In this document: positions 4,258-49,329 of the stretch, one piece after another
How the letters are laid out: each line of letters opens with the position of its first letter
Numbering within the stretch: position 1 is the first letter of the stretch
Assembly: GCA_017654935.2 (NCBI GenBank)
Contig: CM065690.1
Location: forward strand, 27,119,824-27,183,823
Reading direction: 5' to 3'
Source: Phymorhynchus buccinoides
Lineage: Eukaryota > Mollusca > Gastropoda > Neogastropoda > Raphitomidae
Length of the DNA: 64,000 bases
Program-made: the position numbers and the translations under genes
The notes under the pieces: generated by a model
Told to the model about the DNA's origin: nothing
The model's input: the letters and a program-made list of their open reading frames with translations, nothing else
Databases searched by the model: none

Positions 4258-4394
4258 TCACACAAAGACAGGCGGCATGTCTCAGAGCAAGTAAGGTCTT
4301 AGTGGGTGAGTTCTTATAATGGGGAGGTCATCTCTCTGGGCGGTGCCACCCTGTACTGATGGGAACATGACTAGGAATTTCACGGTACACAGGA

Positions 4395-21113: not shown

Positions 21114-21179
21114 ATGGCGAAAGCAGTGTGTGTGTTGACCGGTCAGGAGGGTGTTTCTGGAGTAATTACCCTCACACAG
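21114..21179 (+). CDS. SOD1: SOD1 exon 1 (coding part)
   Basis: 22 codons, [20 protein letters not shown] then TQ, ending before donor CAG|GTAGCT. It forms the first beta strands of the barrel. This exon is outside the palindrome and has no counterpart in the right arm. Confidence 0.93.
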
Positions 21180-22136: not shown

Positions 22137-25100
22137 CACACACACACATCCTTGGTTTGACTTTGTTTGCCTAATCAAACCAACCAGACATGCAAACCAA
22201 TAAATAATGCTGAAGTGCAGAAACAACCAACACTGCTTTTCCCCTCATACCATCAGGGAATGGGGAACAGCTTGGAATGAGAGTTGTTTCTCCTGGGTCA
22301 GTTGAGGAATTCAAGACCCTTATCCAACAGACCCCCCCAAGAAGTAAACAGCACCCTCCCCCCCCCCCCTACCACAAATCCTTGCCCCCATCTCCCATTC
22401 TCCATTCCTCCTCCCCAGTTCCCCATGAAAGTAGAGAAGAGAAACAAAGATACAGTGGAACCTTCCCATTAAGACCTTGACAAATCACCCCCCCAAAGGT
22501 CTTTGATACAATAATATGGAGGTGGACACTCAGTAGTCCAATTTGAGGGGTAATTGCCTAAACATGTTATAAGAGGAATAAAGAAGGGTGATAACACTTT
22601 TAGGCAATTACCCCTCGAATTATGTATAAAGGAGAAAAGAATCTGTGAAACATTTTGGATCACATCTTCGAGGGAGTCTTAATATAGAAGGTTCCACTGT
22701 AGTTAGAAGATAGGATACAGCTGGACTTTGCATCATGCTGGTTTTCCCGATGTGATTTTAAGAGCAACATACATTGTTAACATACATAACCCTCCCCCAC
22801 AGATAGCCCTGCTCTCACAGACGGAAAGTGCACTCACACACTCACAAACTTAAATTTGTAGTGACAGAACAAAGGGTCTTTCAAATGCTATAGACTTTCA
22901 AAATTTGCACAGAAAAACAAGACCAGAGTGAGAGAGAGAGAGAGAGAGGGAAAGATTTTAACCGGCATATGAAAAAGCACAGGAGAATAGAACACGCATA
23001 CATGTGCATGCAAACACTCGCCCACAAACGCAAGCACACACACACGCTCATGCATACACCTTGTCCTTCCCAAAATGCCTTTCTTAAACCCACAGCCGGC
23101 ATATATAAAAAAAAAGCGTTCACGCGAGGCGCGCGCCATCATTCTCATCGCTGCTCGCGACAGAGACGGTTCAACCGTTCTTTTTTCCCTGTTGCCCGAG
23201 CCACTGCGAAGCAGAACGTCGCAGCGACTAGGCTAGCAGTGTATACCCGATCCCTGGGATCAGTAGTTTTCCCTTTAAGGCAGTAATACTGTGACTTTCC
23301 GCCCACTGACTGGCTGGTTGGTTGTGCAGGAGGGGGAGGGCAAGGCCACCAAGGTCACAGGAGAGGTCTGCGGACTGAGTGAGGGGAAACATGGCTTCCA
23401 CATCCATGAGTTTGGGGATGTCTCAAATGGTATGTGAAATATGTTACGGGCTGCACTCATGGTTTTCCCCGGCTGGTACTAACATGGCAATCTCCCACCA
23501 GTGATGGATGATTCATGTTAATTGTTAAAGGTTCTTTCCACTTCTCCAAGCACAGAATGAAAAAGTTAATAGAAAACACACACACACACAGTTGGAGCAT
23601 CGTTTAACTCATTCGCATCGCAACGGTTTTGAATTATTAAAAAAACTCACAAATCACTCCAGCCATACACACAAACAAAACGTACATAAACAAAAGGAGA
23701 AATAAAAGAAGATTACAGGTTTTTACTTCAGGTTTAGACATAGGGGTAGATCAGACTTTTCTTTTATATATAGACTATTAGACTTTATATAGAAAAACTA
23801 CACTGATTGTTTTCCCACAACAAACCACTACAAAAGCAAAGTCAGAGGCAAAATTGTAGTCTAAGGGAGTGAAGCGAGTTTAGAAGTGACCAAGGTATGG
23901 TGTGCACACATTTACTTCCCTTGAAGCAAATGCATCAAATTGCCCTCTGTCTATTAATTCCGGACATATATGGCCGGAACGACTTGAATGAGAATGAGTT
24001 AATCCCCATAGTATTCTTACCATTTCTTTGAAGTAAACTGACTTTTGTCTGCCTGGACAGGTTGTGTATCGGCTGGCAGCCACTTTAACCCTTCAGGAAA
24101 GCAGCATGGAGGGCCCAGCGATGAAAACAGGTGAAGAACAATTAGCCATAGTGTTTTGGATGGGCTAACAACCAGTCTTGACACTAAATATTTACTGTCC
24201 CTATGTTGTGTCTCAGAGGTTCAAACACTTATACATACCATACTGGGTACCATATTTTACGGACAAGGTGCACCTGATTATAAGGCGCACCCCCCAAATT
24301 GTACACAAAATTCAGATTTTGTTATTATAGTTTTGCTTTTTACTATATTATCAGTCACATTATAAAGGCACATGGGTCTCAGTAAAAAAAAAAAAGTATT
24401 GCCGTATAGTCCGTAAAATACGGTACAATACTTTTTCTTTACGTTATGTATCGTTTCCAAACATATTTGTTGTTATCTTATTAATCATATACCCAGGGAG
24501 TTTGAACTTTAAACTTAACTTTAGACAAACCATCTAAAAATAAGTGTTCAGCTTAGAGATGAGGAGGAAAGAAATATCTAAGCACAGTGATACATAGTAA
24601 CAGAAGTGAGGAGACTTTGAGTCCAATTGTACAGTTGACCATCTCTATTACAACCCCCTCTAAGATACGACCTGAACATTTTTAACCAACCATTTTTACG
24701 ACCGGCCGATCCAGGTCTAATGCCACTTTTGCGTAAAACATTTGCTAACAACCGACTAAAACACTCAATACAAACTAAAAGTAAGATCGATGAAACTCGC
24801 CACAGAGTCCTTTTTTAAAACATCACTCAGAGTTAAGTCCATTACAGAAGTTTTACATCACAGTCATTCAAAATGGCATCGTTTTTTAGGCGAAAACGAA
24901 AGATGCCAACTTCTGATCGCAAAATCATACGAACCGATATAAGAAAGATCTAATCAGTAAATGATTCAGTGAGATCGCGCTGATTGAAATGAAATGAACG
25001 AGTGACAACAGAAAACTAGTCTGTAGTCAGGAGAATTGATCTACAGCAGATTTCATCCACAAACTAAAAAACTTGGAACTTTTGTTAAGATCAGGCATGG

Positions 25101-28100
25101 TAGACCTCCATGAATCTCGGAAAATCTGCGAAAGTGAAAATTTGAAAAAAAGAAGAAAAAAGCTGGGGTAAAAATTTGCTAAGGTGCCTAAAAATTACGT
25201 TGTGTTAAAAAAACTATGCAATCGCTTCGCGGAACCGGATGTGAATGACTGAACAAGCAACTTCCCGCCAAAGTTACCAATCGCGCATGGCCTAGCTCAC
25301 GCCACACGTTTCCAGATTTGTGATCCACTTTTTCTTCTTCATTTTGACGCCCAACTTTATCATTTTAGTTTGAGTCGACATCTTTCAAATGAAATGCAGA
25401 ATCGGTTGGATATTCTTCCGCGAAACTCACTTTGCCCCCACTACCATGTCTGTAAGATGAAGCGAGTTTTGTTAAGCGACTTCAGCCACTCTGTCTGTCT
25501 GTCCCTCTCTGTCACTGTGTGTATGTGTGTTTTGCTTCTGCTTTGGTTGGTTGGTTGTTGCTGTAATACACACATTTCTGGGGGAAAAAACTAGGGGAGA
25601 GAACTTCGTGAAAATTAGAGTTGTTTACCTCGACCGAGAGGGACAAACCGTAGCAAACATGGTGTTGAAGAGATTTATAACCTGGATGCGAGTGAGCGAC
25701 TTGCAAACATTTTTTTTAGAGAAATGAGGGGTGGTTACGAGTGGCCACAAACTGATCGAACTTTGCAAAATGTGATGTAAATATAAATGACAACTTTAGC
25801 GACAACTTTAGAATGACGCACTGTGTTCTTTGTCATGTGTGTCTACTCAAACACACGAGGCGACGGCTAATTAAGCCAATGTAACTTCCTGTTTGTTCCC
25901 ACTCGGCTAGGCGGGATCATTCACACACACCTTGAAATTACTCCCCTTAATTATTTCCGAACAATTCCTATTGCTGTTGTGTTGTTTGTTTTTGATAAAG
26001 GTATATGTATGTATTTTATCTGCTGAAAGAACACTAATTGAATGTTTGTTTTAGTGGAGGCGTTTATTTACTATTTTGGGTTGATATCGTACCATGGTGT
26101 CCCTAGATAGACCTGATTCTGAATTTTCAATGTCTTAATAGTTCAATAGGAATTCCACTATAGTATAACCCAGGGCCTGTATTCACATTGAGATAGTATG
26201 AGACATCATTATGCTACCTTAGAAGTCCTTCTAAAGTAGTGGGATTTAATAGGACTTTAGAAGGACTTCTAAGATATCATCTTAATGTGAATACACGCCC
26301 AGGTCTATTTTCCATTACTAATTAAAAATAGAATAAGGGGAAACAACTAGCCTTTACAGTTTCAATGGGAGACTTAGTGGGATTTTTTTCACACTTGAGA
26401 GGGGCTTATCACGCTATATTCTTAGTTGGGCATAGTGAGAGAGAGAAGACAGGGTTGGACTCCTATCTCTATATCTCGCTCTCTCTTTATCCCCAACTAA
26501 GAATATAGAGGGGATTAGCCCCACTCGAGTGTCACGCCATCTGGCATGAAAAAAATCCCACAAAGTCTCCCATTAATGAGCTCCATTAATGAGCTATTTC
26601 TCTTTTAATTCAGTTTTTAATCCATGTAACATTCACATGTATGTAAATAATTTCAGCACTTGAACCTTCATATGATCAGTGTCTTGCAAGCTCCCTTTAG
26701 CGCTAATCTAATAAAGTTTCAGACTTTATTCTATGAGCAGTTTAATATTTTCTTTTTTTAGACATGCGGGTGACCTGGGCAACATAGAAGCGACTGGGGG
26801 TGGTGTGGCTAAAGTTGATATCACCGATGCTCAGATCCCCTTGACTGGTCCAAACTCCATCATCGGAAGATGTGTGGTGGTGAGTACCAGTTTCCTTTGA
26901 ACATGAATGCCTTTAAGTTTAACCATGACATTACTAATTTTGTTTGACATCATTTCATGACATGATTATCAAGTGAGATTCCTGTTGGCTTTTGTGATTG
27001 CTTTTACAAAAAATATAACATATTTGTGAAGAGCGTGACGTAATCACATTTACTGGTAATTATTAGTAAAATACTGATTGCAAAACCAAAATACTGAACA
27101 AAATACTGATTTGACCTGTCAGTCCCAGGGGCTGGTAAATGTTAGCTAGGACTGATACCAGGCATCAGAATAGTCTGAAGTCCAATCCTCTGAAAACTGC
27201 GCTAACATGGCCAACAACTGATCAAGGCCCTTGAGGGACAACACTGAAATGAGTTCCGAACACCACAAAAAAGGCTTAATATAGTGATAAATCACTTTAA
27301 AATGCTATTTAACACAAAGGATAACACTGAATAAAAAGGCAAAACCTCTGACAAGAGAAGCCAATCCTCTGTCAGAAATTCTTAATCCTCTGATCCTCTG
27401 ACAATTATGCCTGTGATACATTGCTTTAACAGAGGCTTTGGTATTGCTATTTTCACTGGCTTTTGTTTCACTGGACTGGTTTTGACACTGGTTGTTCAGT
27501 GGCATTATCGCTGATGGGACTGGTTGTCACTGATTGTCACACTGGTTGTTCAGTGGCATTATCGCTGATGAGACGGGTTTTCACACTGGTTGTTCAGTGG
27601 CATTATCGCTGATGGGACTAGTTTTGACACTGGTTGTTCAGTGGCATTATGATTATCGCTGATGGGACTGGTTGTCACACTGGTTGTTCAGTGGCATTAT
27701 CGCTGATGGGACTAGTTTTCACACTGGTTGTTCAGTGGCATTATCGCTGATGGGACTGGTTTTCACACTGGTTGTTCAGTGGCATTATCGCTGATGGGAC
27801 TGGTTTTCACACTGGTTGTTCAGTGGCATTATCGCTGATGGGACGGGTTTTCACACTGGTTGTTCAGTGGCATTATCGCTGATGGGACTGGTTTTCACAC
27901 TGGTTGTTCAGTGGCATTATCGCTGATGAGACGGGTTTTCACACTGGTTGTTCAGTGGCATTATCGCTGATGGGACTAGTTTTCACACTGGTTGTTCAGT
28001 GGCATTATCGCTGATGGGACTAGTTTTCACACTGGTTGTTCAGTGGCATTATCGCTGATGGGACTGGTTTTCACACTGGTTGTTCAGTGGCATTATCGCT

Positions 28101-30107
28101 GATGGGACTGGTTTTCACACTGGTTGTTCAGTGGCATTATCGCTGATGGGACTAGTTTTCACACTGGTTGTTCAGTGGCATTATCGCTGATGGGACTGGT
28201 TTTCACACTGGTTGTTCAGTGGCATTATCGCTGATGGGACTAGTTTTCACACTGGTTGTTCAGTGGCATTATCGCTGATGGGACGGGTTTTCAAAATTCC
28301 TAGCACATTCAATGGCGTGAGAAAAACACTTGATGGAATTGTGGCATAAATTGAGATTTTGTTTATACAAGGTGAAGCAAATATACAGGTTAGTTAAACA
28401 CACAGAAAACAAAATTGAAACGTCTTGGCTAGTTTTGATTTTATTCCTATTTCAAGTTTGGCATGGACGACATAATTTTGGCTCTTTCTATTAACATGAT
28501 TTGAAAAATAATTACATATTAACCCTTTCGCCGCCAGCCATTTTTCAGCAAAAAAACAAATCCATTAAACTTAACTGGGTAGAGACAAAAATCTGTCTGT
28601 AATACTGGGGGTTCTTCTGTCACATATTTAAAGTAAGGCCTATCCCCACCTCCCAAAATGAAGAGAGCAGGGTCATTGGATAACGGGCCCTGATTTGATG
28701 CCTTTTAGTGACATGGGTGTTGAATCATTTTGGTGCAAAAATGCGACATTGGCGATGAAAGGGTTAACAAAGATATCATTCAAACTTGTCTTTCACATTG
28801 TGGATACCGGTAGAATATGGTATTTTACGGACTTTGATTGTAAGCCGCATCCCCAAATTTAACACAAAATTCAGATTTTGTTAACTTTATTTTCTTACTA
28901 TCAGTCACATTAGTCTGGGGAAAAAGTATCGCCTTATAGTCCGTAAAATATGGTACATAAAAGTAGACAAATACAGTGGAACCTCCTTTATAAGACCTTC
29001 AAAAATCATCCAAAATGAGGTCTTATAAGGGAGGTAATTTTAATACTTACAAAGAAGGGCAATGTCTCGGAAAAGTAGGTCTTATGTGGGAGGGAGTGTT
29101 ATAAGGGAGGTTCTACAGTATGCCCTGAACAGAAAATTGGTATTTTGGGAGTTGTTGACTCTTTTGTGCTTTTGTTAAAAAAAATTCTTATGACGACACT
29201 CAAAAACGACTTATCAAAGTTTTTTTCATTCACCATCAAATTTATGTTTGAGTAATTTTACATTTTTTGCTTTAACCCTTTCACCGCCAGCCATATTTCA
29301 GCCAAAAATGTCCATCAAACTTACTTGGCTGTAGAACAGATTTCATCTGCAATATTGTGGGATTTCTTTGTGACACATTTAGAATACGGTCAATCCTTAC
29401 TGCTCAAATTTAGGAACACAATATCATTGAATAACAGACCCTGATTTCAAGGGTTTTTAATGACATGGGTGTTAAATCACTGTGGTGCTAAAATGCGACT
29501 TTGGCGGTAAAAGGGTTAATAAAGTGTTGCTCTTGTCTTCTTCATCTCAGCTAGTTATTCAAAACTTGATAATGATAGCGTTATTGATTTTGATCATCTT
29601 TTAATTGGTATGCTAGTTCATTAGTAGCATACATGTGCACTACGTTGAAGAGGACCATGCTTTCATTTGTCTGGGTTTTTTTGTGTGTGTGTGTGTGTGA
29701 TTCGATATTGAACAACAAAAACAGTTGATAAACATCTTCCAAGTACATAAGACCTCCCATTATAAGACTCCCTCCCGCATAAGACCTACTTCTCTGAGAC
29801 ATTGCCCTTCTTTGTAAGTATTAAAATCCCCTCCCTTATAAGACCTCATTTTGGATGAATTTTGAAGGTCTTATAAGGGAGGTTCCACTGTATCTTGTGA
29901 ATTAACAGATGACATGGTGACTGAAGTGCTGGAAGAAATGATGCATGTTGCAGATGCTTCTCTATGAGCACTGACTCAGCATTTTGCATGTGATTGCAGG
30001 TGCATCTACGTGAGGACGACCTTGGCAAGGGAGGCGATGAGGAGAGCAAAAAGACGGGCAATGCCGGAGCTCGCGTGGCCTGTGGCATCATTGGCATTGC
30101 CAAGTGA
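21114..30107 (+). CDS. SOD1: Cu/Zn superoxide dismutase, cytosolic (five coding exons)
   Basis: Converts superoxide to oxygen and hydrogen peroxide in the cytosol; the family works as a homodimer. Exons are 21114-21179, 23330-23429, 24061-24130, 26762-26879 and 30000-30107 (66+100+70+118+108 nt), all with GT/AG introns, joining in frame to 153 residues plus TGA. Counting Met as 1, copper ligands are His46, His48, His63 and His120; zinc ligands are His63, His71, His80 and Asp83. The disulfide pair is Cys57/Cys146 and the active-site arginine is Arg143. Both family signatures are present ([11 protein letters not shown] and [12 protein letters not shown]). There is no signal peptide, so it is the intracellular form. 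The start is fixed by family length and a good context (AAC ATG G). Introns of about 2.15, 0.63, 2.63 and 3.12 kb carry MITEs and a minisatellite. From exon 2 onward the gene lies in the left arm of the palindrome. Confidence 0.96.
21337..21489 (+). repeat. Tandem duplication in SOD1 intron 1
   Basis: Two copies of about 72 bases (21337-21410 and 21419-21489) sharing TCACTTCATTACAAA, CGGTTACACGTTTGATG and AGTCAAAGAGACGA. A second short duplication (CCATATTCTTTTATTTATTA) occurs at about 21497 and 21602. Confidence 0.8.
22042..22133 (+). repeat. Poly-T and poly-C tracts
   Basis: About 27 T followed, after a short spacer, by two C runs of about 13 and 31. Exact lengths are unlikely to be reliable. 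Confidence 0.85.
22451..22701. mobile_element. MITE of the TACAGTGGAACC family, long copy with internal hairpin
   Basis: Perfect-looking terminal inverted repeats (TACAGTGGAACCTTC at the left, GAAGGTTCCACTGTA at the right). Inside, a second inverted pair around GGGGTAATTGCCTAAA and TTTAGGCAATTACCCC gives a nested hairpin not seen in the shorter copies. Confidence 0.75.
22920..22950 (+). repeat. GA microsatellite
   Basis: Short GA run in SOD1 intron 1. Confidence 0.8.
23330..23429 (+). CDS. SOD1: SOD1 exon 2
   Basis: 33 codons plus one base, acceptor TTGTGCAG|GAG and donor AATG|GTATGT. Carries the [10 protein letters not shown] copper-site strand (His46, His48). Confidence 0.96.
24061..24130 (+). 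CDS. SOD1: SOD1 exon 3
   Basis: Acceptor CTGGACAG|GT and donor AACAG|GTGAAG. Completes Gly56 and encodes Cys57, bridging His63 (SHFNP) and zinc ligand His71 (QHGGP). The phase matches exons 2 and 4. Confidence 0.95.
24248..24425. mobile_element. MITE with TACCATATTTTACGGAC ends (SOD1 intron 3)
   Basis: Terminal inverted repeats TACCATATTTTACGGAC and GTCCGTAAAATACGGTA. The interior has GATTATAAGGCGCACC and CAAAATTCAGATTTTGTTA. The mirror copy is at 43324-43501 and a second family member at 28816-28954. No transposase; the superfamily is not assigned. Confidence 0.75.
26171..26302. mobile_element. Fold-back MITE with GGGCCTGTATTCACATTGAG ends
   Basis: Almost wholly self-complementary: GGGCCTGTATTCACATTGAG at one end pairs with AATGTGAATACACGCCC at the other, and AGAAGTCCTTCTAAAGT pairs with ACTTTAGAAGGACTTCT inside. 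Related copy at 31493-31641; mirror copies at 41450-41582 and 36114-36258. Confidence 0.75.
26364..26577. mobile_element. Fold-back element with GA/CT core (SOD1 intron 3)
   Basis: Outer inverted words AATGGGAGACTTAGTGGGAT and CCCACAAAGTCTCCCATT; inner words ATATTCTTAGTTGGGC and CCCAACTAAGAATATAG flank a GA run and a CT run that can pair. The same core appears at 31691-31860. Mirror copy at 41174-41391. Confidence 0.75.
26762..26879 (+). CDS. SOD1: SOD1 exon 4
   Basis: Acceptor TTTTTTTAG|ACAT after a T-rich tract, donor GTGGTG|GTGAGT. Completes Arg79 and encodes His80 and Asp83 (HAGDLGN), ending IIGRCVV. The boundary before Val119 is where vertebrate SOD1 has its fourth intron, from family knowledge. 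Confidence 0.96.
27475..28292 (+). repeat. 44-bp minisatellite in SOD1 intron 4
   Basis: About 18-19 units of 44 bases containing GGTTGTTCAGTGGCATTATC followed by GCTGATGGGAC and a variable (A/T/G)GTTTTCACACT. The first units are irregular (one carries an extra GATTAT, another a duplicated TGTCACTGAT). The inverted array at 39457-40284 has a different order of variants and a slightly different length. Confidence 0.92.
28519..28767. mobile_element. piggyBac-like MITE (TTAA flanked), SOD1 intron 4
   Basis: Flanked on both sides by TTAA, with ends CCCTTTCGCCGCCAGCC and GGCGATGAAAGGG. TTAA duplication and CCCTTT-type termini are characteristic of piggyBac transposons (family knowledge). At about 240 bases with no open frame it must be non-autonomous. 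Mirror copy 38982-39227. Confidence 0.75.
28816..28954. mobile_element. MITE with TACCATATTTTACGGAC ends, copy 2
   Basis: Left end ATGGTATTTTACGGAC, right end GTCCGTAAAATATGGTAC, interior CAAAATTCAGATTTTGTTAA as in 24248-24425. Mirror copy at 38793-38932. Confidence 0.7.
28972..29120. mobile_element. MITE of the TACAGTGGAACC family, SOD1 intron 4
   Basis: Ends TACAGTGGAACCTCC and GGGAGGTTCTACAGTA; internal TATAAGACC motifs in both orientations. Mirror copy at 38627-38776. Confidence 0.75.
29272..29519. mobile_element. piggyBac-like MITE (TTAA flanked), copy 2 in SOD1 intron 4
   Basis: TTAA on both sides, ends CCCTTTCACCGCCAGCC and GGCGGTAAAAGGG. About 80% similar by eye to 28519-28767, same orientation. 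Mirror copy 38229-38475. Confidence 0.75.
29744..29892. mobile_element. MITE of the TACAGTGGAACC family, truncated copy
   Basis: Right end GGGAGGTTCCACTGTA is intact; the left end begins inside the element at ATAAGACCTCCC, so the left terminal repeat is lost. It ends about 107 bases before the last SOD1 exon. Mirror copy 37859-38010. Confidence 0.7.
30000..30107 (+). CDS. SOD1: SOD1 exon 5
   Basis: Acceptor ATTGCAG|GTGCAT; encodes His120, the electrostatic loop ([19 protein letters not shown]), Arg143 and Cys146, ending GIIGIAK then TGA. Confidence 0.97.
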
Positions 30108-30500
30108 ATACTGCATAGCTTACGTTTGTTTACTTTGAAGCCGCTTGTTCAGAAGCGATATAGCCAGACCTTCCAGTTCAGGGACATTTTCTTACATTTG
30201 TTCTTTTTTTTTCTCTAGTTAATTATTGGAGTACCGCTACTAACAATTGATAATAATTAAGATGGAAGTACGACTGAAATGTCCTACTTATCCAAGGTCA
30301 AGTCTCATGGTTGATAGCGTAGTTTGTTATTGCTACGAACTGGATGATATAACGCTTCACAAAATTGACACCAAGACATGACCACAATATCTCGTCTTGA
30401 CAACACATTTCCCTTTTATTTCCCCACTGTCAAAAATACCATGTGAACAGAAAGATATTGTCATTTGATTATTACACCCTACGTTTTTTGTTAAAGAAGC

Positions 30501-30506
30501 AATAAA
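30501..30506 (+). promoter_or_regulatory. SOD1: Probable SOD1 polyadenylation signal (AATAAA)
   Basis: First AATAAA after the stop codon, about 394 bases downstream, followed by a GT/T-rich stretch (CAGTTTGTAACTTATCTGCG). Further candidates are AATAAA at about 30921 and ATTAAA near 31328, so longer 3' ends are possible. Confidence 0.55.
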
Positions 30507-30565
30507 CCAGTTTGTAACTTATCTGCGTGACTGAATGATTGGCTTAAAAAATCTAATTTATTATT

Positions 30566-30702
30566 GACCTGTGATGGAGGAAGAAGGATCCTAGGAGGTA
30601 GTTTGTTGAGCGACAGTTTTGAGCATAGTTCTTCACCCATGCTCGAAACTGTCACTCAATTCAAACTACCTCCTAGGATCCTTCTTCCTCCAATCACAGG
30701 TC
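30566..30702. repeat. Long hairpin downstream of SOD1
   Basis: Inverted arms of about 61-64 bases with a loop of about 12: GACCTGTGATGGAGGAAGAA begins the left arm and TTCTTCCTCCAATCACAGGTC ends the right. Only a few mismatches are seen. It lies between two candidate poly(A) signals. Mirror copy 37049-37185. Confidence 0.85.
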
Positions 30703-31490
30703 AGTGTTTACCAATAGGATCCAGCAGTCACCACTTTGTTTCTTCACTATTTATTATTGTTTGGGCAGTATTAGTATTTGTACATGGTGAATTAATCTAA
30801 ACATGAGTGGAGCATGTGTGGTTTGCTGAAAATATTTACTGATATTTGTACTTCAGTACTTCTACACAAATATGTGAGACCAATTGTTTGTATGTTGTTT
30901 CAGTTATAATTTGTAAAAATAATAAAATCCATCAAGACAGAAAAGTTGCAACCATGGACTAGTCTAATGACATAATGCTCCTCATCTACTTTTGACTTGA
31001 CAATCAAATTTGATCGCAAATGTTGCCTATTTTACATAACTACTTCTGATTAGTTGCTGCAATATTCAAAACTATAACGAAGCAAGCTGTCTTTAGATAA
31101 TATATAGTGCAAGTAGTAAATGGAATGTAGACTTATAATGCATCTGTTACAGGTCCACTTATTCTGCCAGTTTGTGACACTTGACAAGAGAGTGGGATAA
31201 TTTGCTCCCACACTGACGTGGTCCTGCAATCTGTTATGTGGCATTTAGTTATATTGCATATCCTTTTCGGTCAACTGTTTATTGTGAATCTGAATCAACT
31301 TGACATTGTGATTGTGAAAACGGTTTATTAAAGCACTGGAAATCCCATTTACTTGTCTGGTCTGTCATAAATGCAATAGCTTTGGCAGTTTTATGTCAAT
31401 AGGAGAATGTAAATGTGGATGCCAAGCTCTGCGTCTGTCAGTTAAATGTGCTTGAATTTAGTGTGTGCGTGTGTGGTACCCATATTTATA
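30703..31490. other. SOD1 downstream region, no gene seen
   Basis: AT-rich sequence with additional AATAAA/ATTAAA words. Possible distal 3' UTR; otherwise intergenic. Confidence 0.4.
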
Positions 31491-31492
31491 AT

Positions 31493-31641
31493 CTGGGCCT
31501 GTATTCACATTGAGACAGTATGAGACTTATCACCATATCTTAGAAGTCCTTCTAAAGTCTTATTAAATCCCACTACTTAAGGACTTGTAAGATATCATGA
31601 TGATAAGTCTCATACTATCTCAGTGTGAATACAGGCCCTGG
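31493..31641. mobile_element. Fold-back MITE with GGGCCTGTATTCACATTGAG ends, copy 2
   Basis: Ends GGGCCTGTATTCACATTGAG and CTCAGTGTGAATACAGGCCC pair along nearly the whole element, with TATCTTAGAAGTCCTTCT inside. Mirror copy 36114-36258. Confidence 0.78.
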
Positions 31642-31690
31642 TCAGTGTCTCTTCACTCGATACAGGTTAATGGTCAACTTAGGACGTTGA

Positions 31691-31860
31691 TTTTGACCAC
31701 CAGGGGGCAATCAAACCAGTAGGGGCTTAGTGCGCGATATTCTTAGTTGGGCATAGTGAGAGAGAGAGAGAGGGACTCATCTCTCTCTCTCTCACTACGC
31801 CCAACTAAGAATATCACGCGCTAAGCCCCTACTGGCTTGATTGCCCCCTGGTGGTAAAAT
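31691..31860. mobile_element. Fold-back element with GA/CT core, copy 2
   Basis: Outer inverted words TTTTGACCACCAGGGGGCAA and TTGCCCCCTGGTGGTAAAA, then GTAGGGGCTTAG and CTAAGCCCCTAC, then ATATTCTTAGTTGGGC and CCCAACTAAGAATAT around a GA/CT core. The two outer ends differ from 26364-26577, so only the core family is shared. Mirror copy 35895-36064. Confidence 0.75.
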
Positions 31861-33694
31861 GCGCATCCTAAGTTGCTCATTACAATGTTATTTTTTTTTA
31901 TCCTTACTCTGGAAAAAAAAAAAAAAATCCATTTTGGCAACTTATAAGTTATTATATAATGACAAAATCGCATTTCTGAACTCTATTTGGCTTCTTACAT
32001 TAATAACCTCACCATCTCCCCTCTTCTCCACCATCACCCTTTCCCATCACTTGCTATTTACCCCCCCCCCCCCCTCCCCTAAAGTAAAGACATCGCCTTT
32101 TTTGGATCCTGCACTTCAGAGATACTGTAGCAATACTTGTGTTTCTATTTTGATAGCAAGGAGGAGATATGGATGTAATACAGAAGGGAAAAATGCATGC
32201 AGTTTTACAATCTTACATGATCTCTTCATTTTGAAGTACCTCCCATGCTGCCCTACCCCACTGCCATCCCTTTTCCAGTTCTGAAGATGAGCATCACCTT
32301 TTCATTAGTGCATTCTTCTTGCTTAAGGTTATTACGGTAATAGAAACAGGATAAAATACAAAACACTACTCCTTTAATAATGGAGATGGGTCAGGGTCAG
32401 TGTACTTTTCCATAACTCTCAGATCATTAGACAAAAAGTCTGAATTTATCAATAGCAAATTATAATAATAATAATAACAATTAATAATGCTTTTATAGCT
32501 TATAAGTTATTATATCACCAGTGATGTCCTGAGGCCCCGGTCATAGGACATTGACCTATTAAAATTGAAAATGTCCTATTGTGTTCTCCCCTGTCAGGAC
32601 AAATGTCTGATTACATTTTGAACACTGGCACGCTTTGTCTTACCGATTTCTGCAAGAGCCAGAACATTGTCCTATTGATTTCTCTTGTCTCAGGACAGTT
32701 TGTCCTGTCACTTTTCCATCCTCGGTACATCACTGTATTACTCATGTAGAATTTATTTTCACATTTTAAAATACAGTTCATGGCATTCTACACTCAGCTT
32801 GAAAAGAAATGGACTGTTCTTTGGGCAATATCCTTACTATCTACTAATTTAAGTCTGTTTATGACTTCTGATTAAATTAATTTTGTTCACAGTCAGACAG
32901 ACAAAAGAGGTACAGACTGTGAGCTCTTTGATTCGTGTAAGATACACTACTCTGCAAATTATTTCACATAATTATTTCATGCTCAACAAACTTCATCTTA
33001 ACTATTTTGAAATAACACTATTTTCAGTGTAAACGAAGAAAACACATGTTGTGAATCTCCTTTATGATAAATTATCCATTTAGGAAATTTAATAACCAAA
33101 ATAAAGTCGTCTTGATTTTTGTAAAGTTTTTGCAGCAATGAAAGAATTCACAACAGAATTAACCTTTCAGGAAGTTACAATAAGAAACTCTTAAGAGGAT
33201 AACTGGATTATAACTTTTTAACTGAAAAATTGAAACACGGTAAAGAACATTGGTCGATAATGGAAATAGTTCAGAGTTGCTTTCTAATGTTTCTTTTACG
33301 CCGTTACGGCATGGTACAAGTTCGGTTTTACAAATAAAAATATATTATGATAATTAGATAAAATATCACTTTTTAGAGACATATAATGTGATAAACAAAA
33401 AAGGAATATACCATACCATGGGAATAACCTGCTGCCATTGCTTCAAGTGGTAAACTCAGGTATTTTGTCTATTGAACACACTTTGTTTATCCAAAATAAA
33501 AAATGGTACTGCATGAAACCTTGAACCAAAGTCTCTAGACATTCATTCTTTTTTTGTTTTTCATGCTCCACATAAACCTTTGAACCAAAATCTCAGCAAA
33601 AAAAATGTCTAATCAATGTTTTATTTTAATGTACCCATCTTGGTTTGTTCTCTGCATATATATTATTTTAGTAACCCAACTTGGTAAAGGTAAA
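31861..33694. other. Inner left arm, no gene seen
   Basis: AT-rich sequence with a C run (about 32060-32075) and a duplicated phrase on CCTATT/TGTCCT near 32520-32720 that forms a loose inverted repeat. Open frames are short and unsupported. The mirror is 34060-35894. Confidence 0.5.
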
Positions 33695-34059: not shown

Positions 34060-35894
34060 TTTACCTTTACCAAGTTGGGTTACTAAAATAATATATATGC
34101 AGAGAACAAACCAAGATGGGTACATTAAAATAAAACATTGATTAGACATTTTTTTTGCTGAGATTTTGGTTCAAAGGTTTATGTGGAGCATGAAAAACAA
34201 AAAAAGAATGAATGTCTAGAGACTTTGGTTCAAGGTTTCATGCAGTACCATTTTTTATTTTGGATAAACAAAGTGTGTTCAATAGACAAAATACCTGAGT
34301 TTACCACTTGAAGCAATGGCAGCAGGTTATTCCCATGGTATGGTATATTCCTTTTTTGTTTATCACATTATATGTCTCTAAAAAGTGATATTTTATCTAA
34401 TTATCATAATATATTTTTATTTGTAAAACCGAACTTGTACCATGCCGTAACGGCGTAAAAGAAACATTAGAAAGCAACTCTGAACTATTTCCATTATCGA
34501 CCAATGTTCTTTACCGTGTTTCAATTTTTCAGTTAAAAAGTTATAATCCAGTTATCCTCTTAAGAGTTTCTTATTGTAACTTCCTGAAAGGTTAATTCTG
34601 TTGTGAATTCTTTCATTGCTGCAAAAACTTTACAAAAATCAAGACGACTTTATTTTGGTTATTAAATTTCCTAAATGGATAATTTATCATAAAGGAGATT
34701 CACAACATGTGTTTTCTTCGTTTACACTGAAAATAGTGTTATTTCAAAATAGTTAAGATGAAGTTTGTTGAGCATGAAATAATTATGTGAAATAATTTGC
34801 AGAGTAGTGTATCTTACACGAATCAAAGAGCTCACAGTCTGTACCTCTTTTGTCTGTCTGACTGTGAACAAAATTAATTTAATCAGAAGTCATAAACAGA
34901 CTTAAATTAGTAGATAGTAAGGATATTGCCCAAAGAACAGTCCATTTCTTTTCAAGCTGAGTGTAGAATGCCATGAACTGTATTTTAAAATGTGAAAATA
35001 AATTCTACATGAGTAATACAGTGATGTACCGAGGATGGAAAAGTGACAGGACAAACTGTCCTGAGACAAGAGAAATCAAAAGGACAGTGTTCTGGTTCTT
35101 GCAGAAATCGGTAAGACAAAGCGTGCCAGTGTTCAAAATGTAATCAGACATTTGTCCTGACAGGGGAGAACACAATAGGACATTTTCAATTAATAGGTCA
35201 ATGTCCTATGACCGGGGCCTCAGGACATCACTGGTGATATAATAACTTATAAGCTATAAAAGCATTATTAATTGTTATTATTATTATTATAATTTGCTAT
35301 TGATAAATTCAGACTTTTTGTCTAATGATCTGAGAGTTATGGAAAAGTACACTGACCCTGACCCATCTCCATTATTAAAGGAGTAGTGTTTTGTATTTTA
35401 TCCTGTTTCTATTACCGTAATAACCTTAAGCAAGAAGAATGCACTAATGAAAAGGTGATGCTCATCTTCAGAACTGGAAAAGGGATGGCAGTGGGGTAGG
35501 GCAGCATGGGAGGTACTTCAAAATGAAGAGATCATGTAAGATTGTAAAACTGCATGCATTTTTCCCTTCTGTATTACATCCATATCTCCTCCTTGCTATC
35601 AAAATAGAAACACAAGTATTGCTACAGTATCTCTGAAGTGCAGGATCCAAAAAAGGCGATGTCTTTACTTTAGGGGAGGGGGGGGGGGGGGGGTAAATAG
35701 CAAGTGATGGGAAAGGGTGATGGTGGAGAAGAGGGGAGATGGTGAGGTTATTAATGTAAGAAGCCAAATAGAGTTCAGAAATGCGATTTTGTCATTATAT
35801 AATAACTTATAAGTTGCCAAAATGGATTTTTTTTTTTTTTTCCCAGAGTAAGGATAAAAAAAATAACATTGTAATGAGCAACTTAGGATGCGCA
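34060..35894. other. Inner right arm, no gene seen
   Basis: Reverse complement of 31861-33694. Shows several substitutions relative to the left arm near 35065-35200, and a longer G run near 35680-35695. Confidence 0.5.
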
Positions 35895-36064
35895 TTTTAC
35901 CGTCAGGGGGCAATCAAACCAGTAGGGGCTTAGCGCGTTATATTCTTAGTTGGGTGTAGTGAGAGAGAGAGAGATGAGTCCCTCTCTCTCTCTCTCACTA
36001 TGCCCAACTAAGAATATCGCGCACTAAGCCCCTACTGGTTTGATTGCCCCCTGGTGGTCAAAAT
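35895..36064. mobile_element. Fold-back element with GA/CT core, right-arm copy
   Basis: Mirror of 31691-31860; differs at the outer word (GTCAGGGGGCA instead of CCAGGGGGCA). Confidence 0.75.
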
Positions 36065-36113
36065 CAACGTCCTAAGTTGACCATTAACCTGTATCGAGTG
36101 AAGAGACACTGAC

Positions 36114-36258
36114 CAGGGCCTGTATTCACACTGAGATAGTATAAAACTTATCATCATGATATCTTACAAGTCCTTAAGTAGTGGGATTTAATAAGACTTT
36201 AGGACTTCTAAGATATGGTGATAAGTCTCATACTATCTCAATGTGAATACAGGCCCAG
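36114..36258. mobile_element. Fold-back MITE (GGGCCTGTATTCACATTGAG family), right-arm copy
   Basis: Mirror of 31493-31641 with a few substitutions and a short deletion. Confidence 0.75.
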
Positions 36259-37048
36259 ATTATAAATATGGGTACCACACACGCACACACTAAATTCAAG
36301 CACATTTAACTGACAGACGCAGAGCTTGGCATCCACATTTACATTCTCCTATTGACATAAAACTGCCAAAGCTATTGCATTTATGACAGACCAGACAAGT
36401 AAATGGGATTTCCAGTGCTTTAATAAACCGTTTTCACAATCACAATGTCAAGTTGATTCAGATTCACAATAAACAGTTGACCGAAAAGGATATGCAATAT
36501 AACTAAATGCCACATAACAGATTGCAGGACCACGTCAGTGTGGGAGCAAATTATCCCACTCTCTTGTCAAGTGTCACAAACTGGCAGAATAAGTGGACCT
36601 GTAACAGATGCATTATAAGTCTACATTCCATTTACTACTTGCACTATATATTATCTAAAGACAGCTTGCTTCGTTATAGTTTTGAATATTGCAGCAACTA
36701 ATCAGAAGTAGTTATGTAAAATAGGCAACATTTGCGATCAAATTTGATTGTCAAGTCAAAAGTAGATGAGGAGCATTATGTCATTAGACTAGTCCATGGT
36801 TGCAACTTTTCTGTCTTGATGGATTTTATTATTTTTACAAATTATAACTGAAACAACATACAAACAATTGGTCTCACATATTTGTGTAGAAGTACTGAAG
36901 TACAAATATCAGTAAATATTTTCAGCAAACCACACATGCTCCACTCATGTTTAGATTAATTCACCATGTACAAATACTAATACTGCCCAAACAATAATAA
37001 ATAGTGAAGAAACAAAGTGGTGACTGCTGGATCCTATTGGTAAACACT

Positions 37049-37185
37049 GACCTGTGATTGGAGGAAGAAGGATCCTAGGAGGTAGTTTGAATTGAGTGAC
37101 AGTTTCGAGCATGGGTGAAGAACTATGCTCAAAACTGTCGCTCAACAAACTACCTCCTAGGATCCTTCTTCCTCCATCACAGGTC
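37049..37185. repeat. Long hairpin, right-arm copy
   Basis: Mirror of 30566-30702, same arms and loop. Confidence 0.82.
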
Positions 37186-37858
37186 AATAATAAATTAGAT
37201 TTTTTAAGCCAATCATTCAGTCACGCAGATAAGTTACAAACTGGTTTATTGCTTCTTTAACAAAAAACGTAGGGTGTAATAATCAAATGACAATATCTTT
37301 CTGTTCACATGGTATTTTTGACAGTGGGGAAATAAAAGGGAAATGTGTTGTCAAGACGAGATATTGTGGTCATGTCTTGGTGTCAATTTTGTGAAGCGTT
37401 ATATCATCCAGTTCGTAGCAATAACAAACTACGCTATCAACCATGAGACTTGACCTTGGATAAGTAGGACATTTCAGTCGTACTTCCATCTTAATTATTA
37501 TCAATTGTTAGTAGCGGTACTCCAATAATTAACTAGAGAAAAAAAAAGAACAAATGTAAGAAAATGTCCCTGAACTGGAAGGTCTGGCTATATCGCTTCT
37601 GAACAAGCGGCTTCAAAGTAAACAAACGTAAGCTATGCAGTATTCACTTGGCAATGCCAATGATGCCACAGGCCACGCGAGCTCCGGCATTGCCCGTCTT
37701 TTTGCTCTCCTCATCGCCTCCCTTGCCAAGGTCGTCCTCACGTAGATGCACCTGCAATCACATGCAAAATGCTGAGTCAGTGCTCATAGAGAAGCATCTG
37801 CAACATGCATCATTTCTTCCAGCACTTCAGTCACCATGTCATCTGTTAATTCACAAGA

Positions 37859-38010
37859 TACAGTGGAACCTCCCTTATAAGACCTTCAAAATTCATCCAA
37901 AATGAGGTCTTATCAGGGAGGGGATTTTAATACTTACAAAGAAGGGCAAAGCCTCAGAGAAATAGGTCTTATGCGGGAGGGAGTCTTATAATGGGAGGTC
38001 TTATGTACTT
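37859..38010. mobile_element. MITE of the TACAGTGGAACC family, right-arm copy
   Basis: Mirror of 29744-29892; several substitutions distinguish the arms here, for example GGCAAAGCCTCAGAGAAATA. Confidence 0.7.
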
Positions 38011-38228
38011 GGAAGATGTTTATCAATTTTTGTTGTTCAATATCGAATCACACACACACACACACAAAAAAACCCAGACAAATGAAAGCATGGTCCTCTT
38101 CAACGTAGTGCACATGTATGCTACTAATGAACTAGCATACCAATTAAAAGATGATCAAAATCAATAACGCTATCATTATCAAGTTTTGAATAACTAGCTG
38201 AGATGAAGAAGACAAGAGCAACACTTTA

Positions 38229-38475
38229 TTAACCCTTTTACCGCCAAAGTCGCATTTTAGCACCACAGTGATTTAACACCAATGTCATTAAAACCCTCAA
38301 AATCAGGGTCTGTTACTCAATGATATTGTGTTCCTAAATTTGAGCAGTAAGGATTGACCGTATTCTAAATGTGTCACAAAGAAATCCCACAATATTGCAG
38401 ATGAAATCTGTTCTACAGCCAAGTAAGTTTGATGGACATTTTTGGCTGAAATATGGCTGGCGGTGAAAGGGTTAA
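38229..38475. mobile_element. piggyBac-like MITE, right-arm copy 1
   Basis: TTAA-flanked, mirror of 29272-29519. Confidence 0.75.
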
Positions 38476-38626
38476 AGCAAAAAATGTAAAATTACTCAAA
38501 CATAAATTTGATGGTGAATGAAAAAAACTTTGATAAGTCGTTTTTGAGTGTCGTCATAAGAATTTTTTTTAACAAAAGCACAAAAGAGTCAACAACTCCC
38601 AAAATACCAATTTTCTGTTCAGGGCA

Positions 38627-38776
38627 TACTGTAGAACCTCCCTTATAACACTCCCTCCCACATAAGACCTACTTCTCCGAGACATTGCCATTCTTTGTAA
38701 GTATTAAAATTACCTCCCTTATAAGACCTCATTTTGGATGATTTTTTGAAGGTCTTATAAAGGAGGTTCCACTGTA
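38627..38776. mobile_element. MITE of the TACAGTGGAACC family, right-arm copy 2
   Basis: Mirror of 28972-29120; ends TACTGTAGAACCTCC and GGAGGTTCCACTGTA. Confidence 0.72.
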
Positions 38777-38792
38777 TTTGTCTACTTTTATG

Positions 38793-38932
38793 TACCATAT
38801 TTTACGGACTATAAGGCGATACTTTTTCCCCCAGACTAATGTGACTGATAGTAAGGAAAATAAAGTAACAAAATCTGAATTTTGTGTTAAATTTGGGGAT
38901 GCGGCTTACAATCAAAGTCCGTAAAATACCAT
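38793..38932. mobile_element. MITE with TACCATATTTTACGGAC ends, right-arm copy
   Basis: Mirror of 28816-28954. Confidence 0.7.
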
Positions 38933-38981
38933 ATTCTACCGGTATCCACAATGTGAAAGACAAGTTTGAATGATATCTTTG

Positions 38982-39227
38982 TTAACCCTTTCATCGCCAA
39001 TGTCACATTTTTGCACCAAAATGGTTTAACACCCATGTCACTAAAAGGCATCAAGTCAGGGTCTGTTATCCAAAGACCCTGTTCTCTTCATTTTGGGAGG
39101 TGGGGATAGGCCTTACTTTAAATATGTCACAGAGGAATCCCCAATATTACAGACAGATTTTTTGTCTCTACCCAGGTAAGTTTAATGGATTGTTTTGCTG
39201 AAAAATGGCTGGCGGCGAAAGGGTTAA
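38982..39227. mobile_element. piggyBac-like MITE, right-arm copy 2
   Basis: TTAA-flanked, mirror of 28519-28767; substitutions and a small deletion near 39070-39090 relative to the left arm. Confidence 0.75.
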
Positions 39228-39456
39228 TATGTAATTATTTTTCAAATCATGTTAATAGAAAGAGCCAAAATTATGTCGTCCATGCCAAACTTGAAATAGG
39301 AATAAAATCAAAGCTAGCCAAGACGTTTCAATTTTGTTTTCTGTGTGTTTACTAACTAACCTGTATATTTGCTTCACCTTGTATAAACAAAATCTCAATT
39401 TATGCCACAATTCCATCAAGTGTTTTTCTCACGCCAGTGAATGTGCTAGGAATTTT

Positions 39457-40284
39457 GAAAACCCGTCCCATCAGCGATAATGCCACTGAACAACCAGTGT
39501 GAAAACTAGTCCCATCAGCGATAATGCCACTGAACAACCAGTGTCACAACCAGTCCCATCAGCGATAATGCCACTGAACAACCAGTGTGAAAACTAGTCC
39601 CATCAGCGATAATGCCACTGAACAACCAGTGTGACAACCAGTCCCATCAGCGATAATGCCACTGAACAACCAGTGTGAAAACTAGTCCCATCAGCGATAA
39701 TGCCACTGAACAACCAGTGTGAAAACCAGTCCCATCAGCGACAATGCCACTGAACAACCAGTGTGAAAACCCGTCCCATCAGCGATAATGCCACTGAACA
39801 ACCAGTGTGAAAACCCGTCTCATCAGCGATAATGCCACTGAACAACCAGTGTGAAAACCAGTCCCAACAGCGATAATGCCACTGAACAACCAGTGTGAAA
39901 ACCTAGTCCCATCAGCGATAATGCCACTGAACAACCAGTGTGAAAACTAGTCCCATCAGCGATAATGCCACTGAACAACCAGTGTGACAACCAGTCCCAT
40001 CAGCGATAATGCCACTGAACAACCAGTGTGACAACTAGTCCCATCAGCGATAATGCCACTGAACAACCAGTGTGACAACCAGTCCCATCAGCGATAATCA
40101 TAATGCCACTGAACAACCAGTGTCAAAACTAGTCCCATCAGCGATAATGCCACTGAACAACCAGTGTGAAAACCCGTCTCATCAGCGATAATGCCACTGA
40201 ACAACCAGTGTGACAATCAGTGACAACCAGTCCCATCAGCGATAATCAAATGCCACTGAACAACCAGTGTCAAAACCAGTCCCA
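39457..40284 (-). repeat. 44-bp minisatellite, right-arm copy
   Basis: Inverted counterpart of 27475-28292, about 19 units. The succession of AACTAG, AACCAG, AACCCG and ACAACC junction variants is not the simple mirror of the left array. Confidence 0.9.
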
Positions 40285-41173
40285 GTGAAACAAAAGCCAG
40301 TGAAAATAGCAATACCAAAGCCTCTGTTAAAGCAATGTATCACAGGCATAATTGTCAGAGGATCAGAGGATTAAGAATTTCTGACAGAGGATTGGCTTCT
40401 CTTGTCAGAGGTTTTGACTTTCTATCCAGTGTTATCCTTTGTGTTAAATAGCATTTTAAAGTGATTTATCACTATATTAAGCCTTTTTGGTGATGTTGGG
40501 AACTCATTTCAGTGTTGTCCCTCAAGGGCCTTGATCAGTTGATGGCCATGTTAGCGCAGTTTTCAGAGGATTGGACTTCAGACTATTCTGATGCCTGGTA
40601 TCAGTCCTAGCTAACATTTACCAGCCCCTGGGACTGACAGGTCAAATATTTTTTCAGTATTTTGGTTTTGCAATCAGTATTTTACTAATAATTACCAGTA
40701 AATGTGATTACGTCACGCTCTTCACAAATATGTTATATTTTTTGTAAAAGCAATCACAAAAGCCAACAGGAATCTCACTTGATAATCATGTCATGAAATG
40801 ATGTCAAACAAAATTAGTAATGTCATGGTTAAACTTAAAGGCATTCATGTTCAAAGGAAACTGGTACTCACCACCACACATCTTCCGATGATGGAGTTTG
40901 GACCAGTCAAGGGGATCTGAGCATCGGTGATATCAACTTTAGCCACACCACCCCCAGTCGCTTCTATGTTGCCCAGGTCACCCGCATGTCTAAAAAAAGA
41001 AAATATTAAACTGCTCATAGAATAAAGTCTGAAACTTTATTAGATTAGCGCTAAAGGGAGCTTGCAAGACACTGATCATATGAAGGTTCAAGTGCTGAAA
41101 TTATTTACATACATGTGAATGTTACATGGATTAAAAACTGAATTAAAAGAGAAATAGCTCATTAATGGAGCTC

Positions 41174-41391
41174 ATTAATGGGAGACTTTGTGGGATTTTT
41201 TTCACGCCAGATGGCGTGACACTCGACGTGGGGCTAATCCTCTCTATATTCTTAGTTGGGGATAAAGAGAGAGCGAGAGATAGAGATAGGAGTCCAACCC
41301 TGTCTTCTCTCTCTCACTACGCCCAACTAAGAATATAGCGTGATAAGCCCCTCTCAAGTGTGAAAAAAATCCCACTAAGTCTCCCATTGAA
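41174..41391. mobile_element. Fold-back element with GA/CT core, right-arm copy 2
   Basis: Mirror of 26364-26577. Confidence 0.72.
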
Positions 41392-41449
41392 ACTGTAAAG
41401 GCTAGTTGTTTCCCCTTATTCTATTTTTAATTAGTAATGGAAAATAGAC

Positions 41450-41582
41450 CTGGGCGTGTTATTCACATTAAGATGATATCTTAGAAGTCCTTCTAAAGTC
41501 CTATTAAATCCTACTACTTTAGAAGGACTTCTAAGATATCATGATAAGTTCTCATACTATCTCAATGTGAATACAGGCCCTG
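41450..41582. mobile_element. Fold-back MITE (GGGCCTGTATTCACATTGAG family), right-arm copy 2
   Basis: Mirror of 26171-26302. Confidence 0.72.
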
Positions 41583-43323
41583 GGTTATACTATAGTGGAA
41601 TTCCTATTGAACTATTAAGACATTGAAAATTCAGAATCAGGTCTATCTAGGGACACCATGGTACGATATCAACCCAAAATAGTAAATAAACGCCTCCACT
41701 AAAACAAACATTCAATTAGTGTTCTTTCAGCAGATAAAATACATACATATACCTTTATCAAAAACAAACAACACAACAGCAATAGGAATTGTTCGGAAAT
41801 AATTAAGGGGAGTATTTTCAAGGTGTGTGTGAATGATCCCGCCTAGCCGAGTGGGAACAAACAGGAAGTTACATTGGCTTAATTAGCCGTCGCCTCGTGT
41901 GTTTGAGTAGACACACATGACAAAGAACACAGTGCGTCATTCTAAAGTTGTCGCTAAAGTTGTCATTTATATTGACGTCACATTTTGCAAAGTTCGATCA
42001 GTTTGTGGCCACTCGTAACCACCCCTCATTTCTCTAAAAAAAAGTTTCCAAGTCGCTCACTCGCATCCAGGTTATAAATCTCTTCAACACCATGTTTGCT
42101 ACGGTTTGTCCCTCTTGGTCGAGGTAAACAACTCTAATTTTCACGAAGTTCTCTCCCCTAGTTTTTTCTCTCCAGAAATGTGTGTATTACAGCAACAACC
42201 AACCAACCAAAGCAGAAGCAAAACACACATACACACAGTGACAGAGAGGGACAGACAGACAGAGTGGCTGAAGTCGCTTAACAAAACTCGCTTCATCTTA
42301 CAGGCATGGTAGTGGGGGCAAAGTGAGTTTCGCGGAAGAATATCCAACCGATTCTGCATTTCATTTGAAAGATGTTGACTCAAACTAAAATGATAAAGTT
42401 GGGCGTCAAAATGAAGAAGAAAAAGTGGATCACAAATCTGGAAACGTGTGGCGTGAGCTAGGCCATGCGCGATTGGTAACTTTGGCGGGAAGTTGCTTGT
42501 TCAGTCATTCACATCCGGTTCCGCGAAGCGATTGCATAGGTTTTAACACACGTAATTTTTAGGCACCTGAGCGAATTTTTACCCCAGCTTTTTTGTTGTT
42601 TGTTTCAAATTTTCACTTTCGCAGATTTTCAAGGATTCGCGGAGGTCTACCATGCCTGATCTTAACAAAAGTTCCAAGTTTTTTAGTTGTGGATGAAATC
42701 TGCTGTAGATCAATTCTCCTGACTACAGACTAGTTTTCTGTTGTCACTCGTTCATTTCATTTCAATCAGCGCGATCTCACTGAATCATTTACTGATTAGA
42801 TCTTTCTTATATCGGTTCGTATGATTTTGCGATCAGAAGTTGGCATCTTTCGTTTTCGCCTAAAAAACGATGCCATTTTGAATGACTGTGATGTAAAACT
42901 TCTGTAATGGACTTAACTCTGAGTGATGTTTTAAAAAAGGACTCTGTGGCGAGTTTCATCGATCTTACTTTTAGTTTGTATTGAGTGTTTTAGTCGGTTG
43001 TTAGCAAATGTTTTACGCAAAAGTGGCATTAGACCTGGATCGGCCGGTCGTAAAAATGGTTGGTTAAAAATGTTCAGGTCGTATCTTAGAGGGGGTTGTA
43101 ATAGAGATGGTCAACTGTACAATTGGACTCAAAGTCTCCTCACTTCTGTTACTATGTATCACTGTGCTTAGATATTTCTTTCCTCCTCATCTCTAAGCTG
43201 AACACTTATTTTTAGATGGTTTGTCTAAAGTTAAGTTTAAAGTTCAAACTCCCTGGGTATATGATTAATAAGATAACAACAAATATGTTTGGAAACGATA
43301 CATAACGTAAAGAAAAAGTATTG

Positions 43324-43501
43324 TACCGTATTTTACGGACTATACGGCAATACTTTTTTTTTTTTACTGAGACCCATGTGCCTTATAATGTGACTAATAA
43401 TATAGTAAAAAGAAAACATAATAACAAAATCTGAATTTTGTGTACAATTTGGGGGGTGGTGCGCCTTATAATCAGGTGCACCTTGTCCGTAAAATATGGT
43501 A
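43324..43501. mobile_element. MITE with TACCATATTTTACGGAC ends, right-arm copy 2
   Basis: Mirror of 24248-24425. Confidence 0.72.
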
Positions 43502-44517
43502 CCCAGTATGGTATGTATAAGTGTTTGAACCTCTGAGACACAACATAGGGACAGTAAATATTTAGTGTCAAGACTGGTTGTTAGCCCATCCAAAACACTA
43601 TGGCTAATTGTTCTTCACCTGTTTTCATCGCTGGGCCCTCCATGCTGCTTTCCTGAAGGGTTAAAGTGGCTGCCAGCCGATACACAACCTGTCCAGGCAG
43701 ACAAAAGTCAGTTTACTTCAAAGAAATGGTAAGAATACTATGGGGATTAACTCATTCTCATTCAAGTCGTTCCGGCCATATATGTCCGGAATTAATAGAT
43801 AGCTGTCAATTTGATGCATTTGCTTCAAGGGAAGTAAATTTGTGTGCACACTAATACCTGGTCACTTCTAAACTCGCTTCGCTCCCTAAGACTACAATTT
43901 TGCATCTGACTTTGTTTTTGTAGTGGTTTGTTGTGGGAAAACAATCAGTGTAGTTTTTCTATATAAAGTCTAATAGTCTATATATAAAAGAAAAGTCTGA
44001 TCTACCACCTATGTCTAAAACCTGAAGTAAAAACATGTAATCTTCTTTTATTTCTCCTTTTGTTTATGTACGTTTTGTTTGTGTGTATGGCTGGAGTGAT
44101 TTGTGAGTTTTTTTTAATAATTCAAAACCGTTGCGATGCGAATGAGTTAAACGATGCTCCAACTGTGTGTGTGTGTGTTTTCTATTAACTTTTTCATTCT
44201 GTGCTTGGAGAAGTGGAAAGAACCTTTAACAATTAACATGAATCATCCATCACTGGTGGGAGATTGCCATGTTAGTACCAGCCGGGGAAAACCATGAGTG
44301 CAGCCCGTAACATATTTCACATACCATTTGAGACATCCCCAAACTCATGGATGTGGAAGCCATGTTTCCCCTCACTCAGTCCGCAGACCTCTCCTGTGAC
44401 CTTGGTGGCCTTGCCCTCCCCCTCCTGCACAACCAACCAGCCAGTCAGTGGGCGGAAAGTCACAGTATTACTGCCTTAAAGGGAAAACTACTGATCCCAG
44501 GGATCGGGTATACACTG

Positions 44518-45720: not shown

Positions 45721-45721
45721 T

Positions 45722-49326: not shown

Positions 49327-49329
49327 GTT

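Follow-up and report, generated by a model that had tools for sequence, protein, structure and literature searches.

A 21-kb mirror in a Phymorhynchus buccinoides contig is most likely a false fold-back join at an inverted-repeat element

Introduction

Long palindromes without a spacer are expected to be unstable. When such a structure appears in an assembled genome, several described systems offer themselves for comparison. Haplotypic (false) duplications usually lie in direct order or on a separate contig. The locus described here resembles them in presenting two copies that differ at about the level of heterozygosity and lie beside a contig end and gap, but it is inverted, has no spacer and sits at an inverted-repeat element. 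Fold-back elements and MITEs (miniature inverted-repeat elements) are short and consist almost entirely of inverted repeat, and the same is seen here for the element at the centre of the mirror and for one further copy in the window.

A second group of related structures arises during sequencing. A study that profiled fold-back reads in nanopore and PacBio data shows two that share a breakpoint and cautions against tangled assembly graphs (PMC12870357). Such reads share with our locus the mirror around a single point, little or no spacer and the potential to tangle the graph, whereas the arms of a single read come from one molecule and the arms described here differ by 1.19% in substitutions. 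Palindromic reads that follow amplification are also the topic of a further report (PMC13265396).

The closest biological process is known from yeast, in which breaks near natural inverted repeats give rise to inverted duplications by fold-back priming (PMC10622511). These events likewise have their centre at a natural inverted repeat, but they are described as producing a dicentric chromosome that is later stabilised by secondary events, whereas our locus shows no second junction. For human inverted copy-number variants, origin-dependent inverted-repeat amplification has been proposed (PMC10766186).

Results

The mirror is present in the assembled sequence and ends at a scaffold gap

We analysed a stretch of 64,000 nucleotides of contig CM065690.1, called the window throughout. 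A blastn comparison of the window with itself returned a sole long self-match, in which 23237-44517 pairs with 44517-23237 on the minus strand; its 21341 columns are 98.5% identical and include 199 mismatches and 82 gap openings. As this match counts the arm pair twice, it corresponds to about 100 mismatches and about 41 gap openings per arm pair. Global alignment of the arms with MAFFT gave 10613 aligned columns when base 33878, which pairs with itself at the centre, was set aside. Of these, 126 are substitutions (98.8% identity or 1.19% divergence); there are also 29 indels of 1-5 bases each, 17 of them single-base and 12 of 2-5 bases. The split between substitutions and indels varies with the aligner (blastn versus MAFFT). 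The palindrome is thus confirmed in the assembled sequence, and the length of the arm match excludes a chance origin. The sequence-only reading, which had described a mirror of 23237-33877 and 33879-44517 around a one-base centre, was borne out by both comparisons. Its wording "near-perfect" is too strong for arms with this many substitutions and indels, and it was silent on the 500-N gap at the right boundary, on the gene in the arms and on the inverted-repeat element at the centre.

23237..33877, plus strand: left arm of the palindrome (self-blastn; global alignment against reverse-complemented 33879-44517)
33878..33878, no strand: one-base centre of symmetry (two halves aligned at the centre)
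33879..44517, minus strand: right arm, 98.8% identical to the left arm in reverse complement, ending on the last base before the gap (self-blastn and global alignment)
44518..45017, no strand: scaffold gap of exactly 500 N, the sole N run in the window, with the right arm flush with it (N-run count)
27473..28293, plus strand: 44-bp minisatellite of the left arm (extent from self-blastn; TRF 17.2 copies over 27529-28293)
39456..40284, minus strand: 44-bp minisatellite of the right arm (extent from self-blastn; TRF 17.2 copies over 39456-40221)

The final base of the right arm, 44517, immediately precedes the N run. Because the arm runs flush to the gap, its outer edge is a contig end and is not informative on a biological boundary, and because the right arm stops there, the left boundary at 23237 is a mere mirror of 44517. 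An outer arm end that coincides with a contig end (44517 next to 44518-45017) is what a fold-back misassembly between haplotypes would leave behind. Past the gap, 45018-64000 contains no mirrored left flank: when it was compared with 1-23236 by blastn (E up to 1e-3), the only matches were four diverged ones, none of them before 59.7 kb; against the palindrome arm the same region gave one match of 145 columns at 71%. A dispersed repeat of about 68-70% identity connects 62408-62955, past the gap, with 2074-2585 and 15607-15912 in the left flank.

These edges bear directly on the possibility of a real inverted duplication, which we regard as unlikely. In such an event, a break or a fork stall at the central element would allow the strand to turn back on itself and act as primer for its own synthesis, leaving tail-to-tail copies of the superoxide dismutase gene described below and a second junction in the gap, and the arms would since have diverged or been partly converted. 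No second junction of an inverted duplication was seen in the 64-kb window. It may lie in the gap, so that a real duplication requires a junction that happens to be missing, and the homology of the arms extends to the very last base before the gap. The instability expected of a long palindrome without spacer counts against a real duplication as well.

Most of a Cu/Zn superoxide dismutase gene is mirrored

The left side of the window carries a Cu/Zn superoxide dismutase gene, of which exon 1 lies outside the palindrome.

21114..21179, plus strand: superoxide dismutase exon 1, outside the palindrome (tblastn, one copy in the window)
23330..23429, plus strand: exon 2, left arm
24061..24130, plus strand: exon 3, left arm
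26762..26879, plus strand: exon 4, left arm
30000..30107, plus strand: exon 5 with stop codon, left arm
37644..37751, minus strand: mirrored exon 5, right arm
40872..40989, minus strand: mirrored exon 4, right arm
43619..43688, minus strand: mirrored exon 3, right arm
44325..44424, minus strand: mirrored exon 2, right arm; 93 bases separate it from the gap

Together, exons 1-5 encode a protein of 153 residues, with GT following exons 1-4 and AG preceding exons 2-5. Exons 2-5 match the Pfam family Sod_Cu (PF00080) with 160 bits against a curated cut-off of 28.9 (E 5.4e-47), and 153 distinct solved sequences match superoxide dismutase, 60 of the 153 being listed. A protein search returned 6361 matching proteins; among the best 120 listed, the top E-value belongs to Vanilla planifolia (84% coverage, 56% identity), followed by two matches from the snail Babylonia areolata at full length with 74% and 70% identity, so that the two best full-length matches among those listed are both gastropod, and the window would accordingly come from a caenogastropod-like mollusc. 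Upstream of exon 1, at 19184-20240, lies a 68-bp minisatellite with about 15.6 copies and 96% match.

The mirrored exons 2-5 are identical to those of the left arm in 396 of 396 bases. A tblastn search found no exon 1 for the mirrored copy in the window, where exon 1 occurs only once, and a mirrored gene that lacks its first exon in the window is a further point against a real duplication.

Since the arms carry a host gene with introns, we do not favour a large transposon or virus whose termini are long inverted repeats. The Pfam test of other coding potential covered 10 of the 41 open reading frames of at least 110 amino acids in the window, including two from the palindrome (25253 and 31841), and gave one weak match of 17 bits, below the family cut-off of 27; with this coverage, transposon fragments in the window are possible. 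Neither a tRNA nor an Rfam match at gathering scores was found in the window. At 9694-14055 it contains long low-complexity tracts that are rich in GA/CA and strongly skewed in both AT and GC.

The arms differ like two molecules

The 126 substitutions between the arms consist of 66 transitions and 60 transversions. Random error is expected to give a ratio of about 1:2. In combination with the 12 of 29 indels that span more than one base, this makes the arms look like two different molecules and not like a single one that was read twice. As judged from the alignment, the differences do not look like raw read error; they resemble polymorphism or evolutionary divergence. Some of the differences may nevertheless be technical, because several single-base indels lie in or next to homopolymer runs.

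The size of the divergence is also in the range of alleles: 1.19% resembles the heterozygosity of 1.41% given for the caenogastropod Rapana venosa, which serves as a comparator only (PMC10432487). Allele-like differences (1.19% divergence, 66:60, 12 of 29 indels of 2-5 bases) would thus be in line with two haplotypes, although an old real duplication also fits.

These numbers speak against a single molecule that folded back, through a missed adapter, an amplification chimera or a fold-back read, and was taken straight into the contig without any contribution from a second haplotype. Palindromic reads are known after whole-genome amplification (PMC6218980) and fold-back reads are documented (PMC12870357), but this explanation predicts arms that are identical apart from read error, whereas we observed 126 substitutions at 66:60 and 12 of 29 indels longer than one base. 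It survives only if later polishing shifted the arms to different alleles, and we consider it very improbable. Without a switch of haplotype it is not favoured, as the arms are too different; a single fold-back molecule would not account for them, and a haplotype switch is needed.

The substitutions are distributed in patches along the arms, with a variance of 16.7 against a mean of 2.95 in 42 bins of 250 bp. The longest stretch free of differences measures 1679 bp, compared with 769 bp for the 99.9% null of uniformly placed differences, which was computed from 171 difference positions with the centre base still among them. Such patchy identity between the arms is a point in favour of a real duplication. 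Both the patchiness and the equal copy number of the 44-bp minisatellite in the two arms (17.2 in each, TRF) also fit gene conversion between real arms and to this extent speak against a misjoin. The innermost part, 33680-33877, contains 2 substitutions and 2 indels and is therefore no cleaner than the remaining arm.

All 126 substitutions fall in aligned columns outside the exons. We dropped purifying selection on the exons as proof of two alleles: when the exon mask was shifted circularly, 1815 of the 10641 shifts likewise gave 0 differences.

An inverted-repeat element lies at the centre

The centre of the mirror coincides with the apex of a short inverted-repeat element, each side of about 200 bp around 33878 being one half of it.

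33680..34076, no strand: inverted-repeat (fold-back, MITE-like) element with its apex at the palindrome centre (half matches the copy at 4.4-4.9 kb in both orientations); bounds approximate, set by the extent of the alignment
4393..4885, no strand: diverged second copy of the element, halves inversely related, apex near 4645, outside any large palindrome (gapped alignment)

Alignment scores were judged against 1000 dinucleotide shuffles each, the match having first been seen with 200 simple shuffles. The central half matches 4393-4885 in both orientations with scores of 154 and 106 (best shuffle 55 and 63), and the halves of 4393-4885 match each other with a score of 75 (best shuffle 55). The outer 97 nucleotides of the central half again match the second copy in both orientations (95 and 54 versus 44 and 49). 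Its innermost 34 nucleotides match in one orientation only (41 versus 30), the score of 17 in the other orientation being equalled by 596 of 1000 shuffles; the match of this core stops at 4644, close to the second copy's apex. On gapped alignment scores, the independent copy is thus an inverted repeat along its length, as expected of a fold-back or MITE-like element. In 4400-4900 there is no ungapped inverted repeat of at least 25 nucleotides, and the DNA folding energy of the second copy is ordinary (z -0.30). In gapped alignment only, the second copy is an imperfect inverted repeat, apparently old and diverged.

The window flanks contain this one further copy of the element, and its outer ends are blurred by C/G runs. 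Elsewhere, there was no plasmid match, and one pattern had no exact match in viral contigs, as expected for animal DNA. Additional short elements of inverted-repeat (MITE-like) type lie in the arm at 26165-26574, 30575-30692 and 31495-31882, some of them more than 90% complementary; those at 26165 and 31495 have the common end sequence GGGCCTGTATTCACATTG and look related.

Short interstitial CCCTAA/TTAGGG-like runs occur at 33812-33842 and 33913-33943, in the halves of the central element, and at 17672-17712. We rejected a telomere fusion: the arrays, CCCTAA on the left and TTAGGG on the right, are arranged in the reverse of the order that telomeres fused head to head would show, and the short runs at the centre belong to the halves of the element.

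The left arm holds 10 inverted-repeat pairs, some of them nested. If one apex is counted per pair and 5 bases are taken as a hit, the chance that a random centre falls on an apex is at most about 0.5%. The position of the centre is therefore probably not random, and the inverted repeat has probably participated in making the palindrome, be it in the cell or in the assembly. That the centre falls on the apex of this element, of which the window holds an independent copy, counts in favour of a misjoin and also of a real duplication; for the latter, there are the inverted duplications at yeast breaks near natural inverted repeats (PMC10622511) and the amplification proposed for human variants (PMC10766186). 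As a real fold-back inverted duplication likewise predicts a centre at an inverted repeat, this position also weakens the argument for a misjoin.

Discussion

We assume that the 21-kb mirror is most likely an assembly error and probably not a real structure of the chromosome. Our preferred explanation, to which we assign a probability of roughly 85%, is a false fold-back join at the inverted-repeat element, by which one haplotype runs into the reverse strand of the other. It accounts for all observations. The true order would be the left flank, the superoxide dismutase gene, the element near 33.9 kb and then other sequence that is not mirrored. At the element, the assembly may have turned round via fold-back reads or via an overlap between the opposite strands of the element, and the contig would then have run along the reverse strand of the same locus, mainly with reads of the other haplotype. 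An assembler that places each read once could have been driven to the reads of the other haplotype on this return path. These reads would have run out at 44517, where the scaffolder would have inserted the 500-N gap. From the features of the contig described above, we infer that the assembly turned round, that the right arm stems from the other haplotype and that the true sequence takes a different course past the element.

Assembly practice in another caenogastropod serves as a comparison. The Rapana venosa genome was assembled with wtdbg, polished with Pilon, purged of haplotigs and scaffolded with 3D-DNA, and its gap total of 6,361,500 equals 12,723 x 500, which is consistent with 500-N gaps in 3D-DNA scaffolds (PMC10432487). 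A keyword search of the open-access literature found no description of a fold-back join at a MITE-like element.

The sequence-only reading had left two alternatives side by side, a recent or gene-converted inverted duplication and the joining of one haplotype to the reverse strand of the other. The flush gap, the allele-like differences and the lack of a second junction in the window favour the latter, and the duplication is less favoured. A real germline palindrome of 21 kb without spacer, for which the apex of a small inverted-repeat transposon was the seed, with most of the Cu/Zn superoxide dismutase gene duplicated tail-to-tail and the similarity of the arms kept by patchy gene conversion, appears improbable to us.

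If the false fold-back join is correct, the assembly contains a false second superoxide dismutase copy, made up of exons 2-5 and lacking exon 1, and a false inverted duplication, so that work on copy number and structural variants would be misled; the true sequence past 33.9 kb would be missing or misplaced. The combination of a palindrome arm flush with a gap, a centre on an inverted-repeat element and an arm divergence near heterozygosity suggests itself as a cheap screen for similar cases. The element at the apex makes the locus a useful example of where fold-back artefacts may arise. A genuine palindrome, on the other hand, would provide a case from nature in which a short inverted-repeat transposon seeded a long palindrome in the germline.
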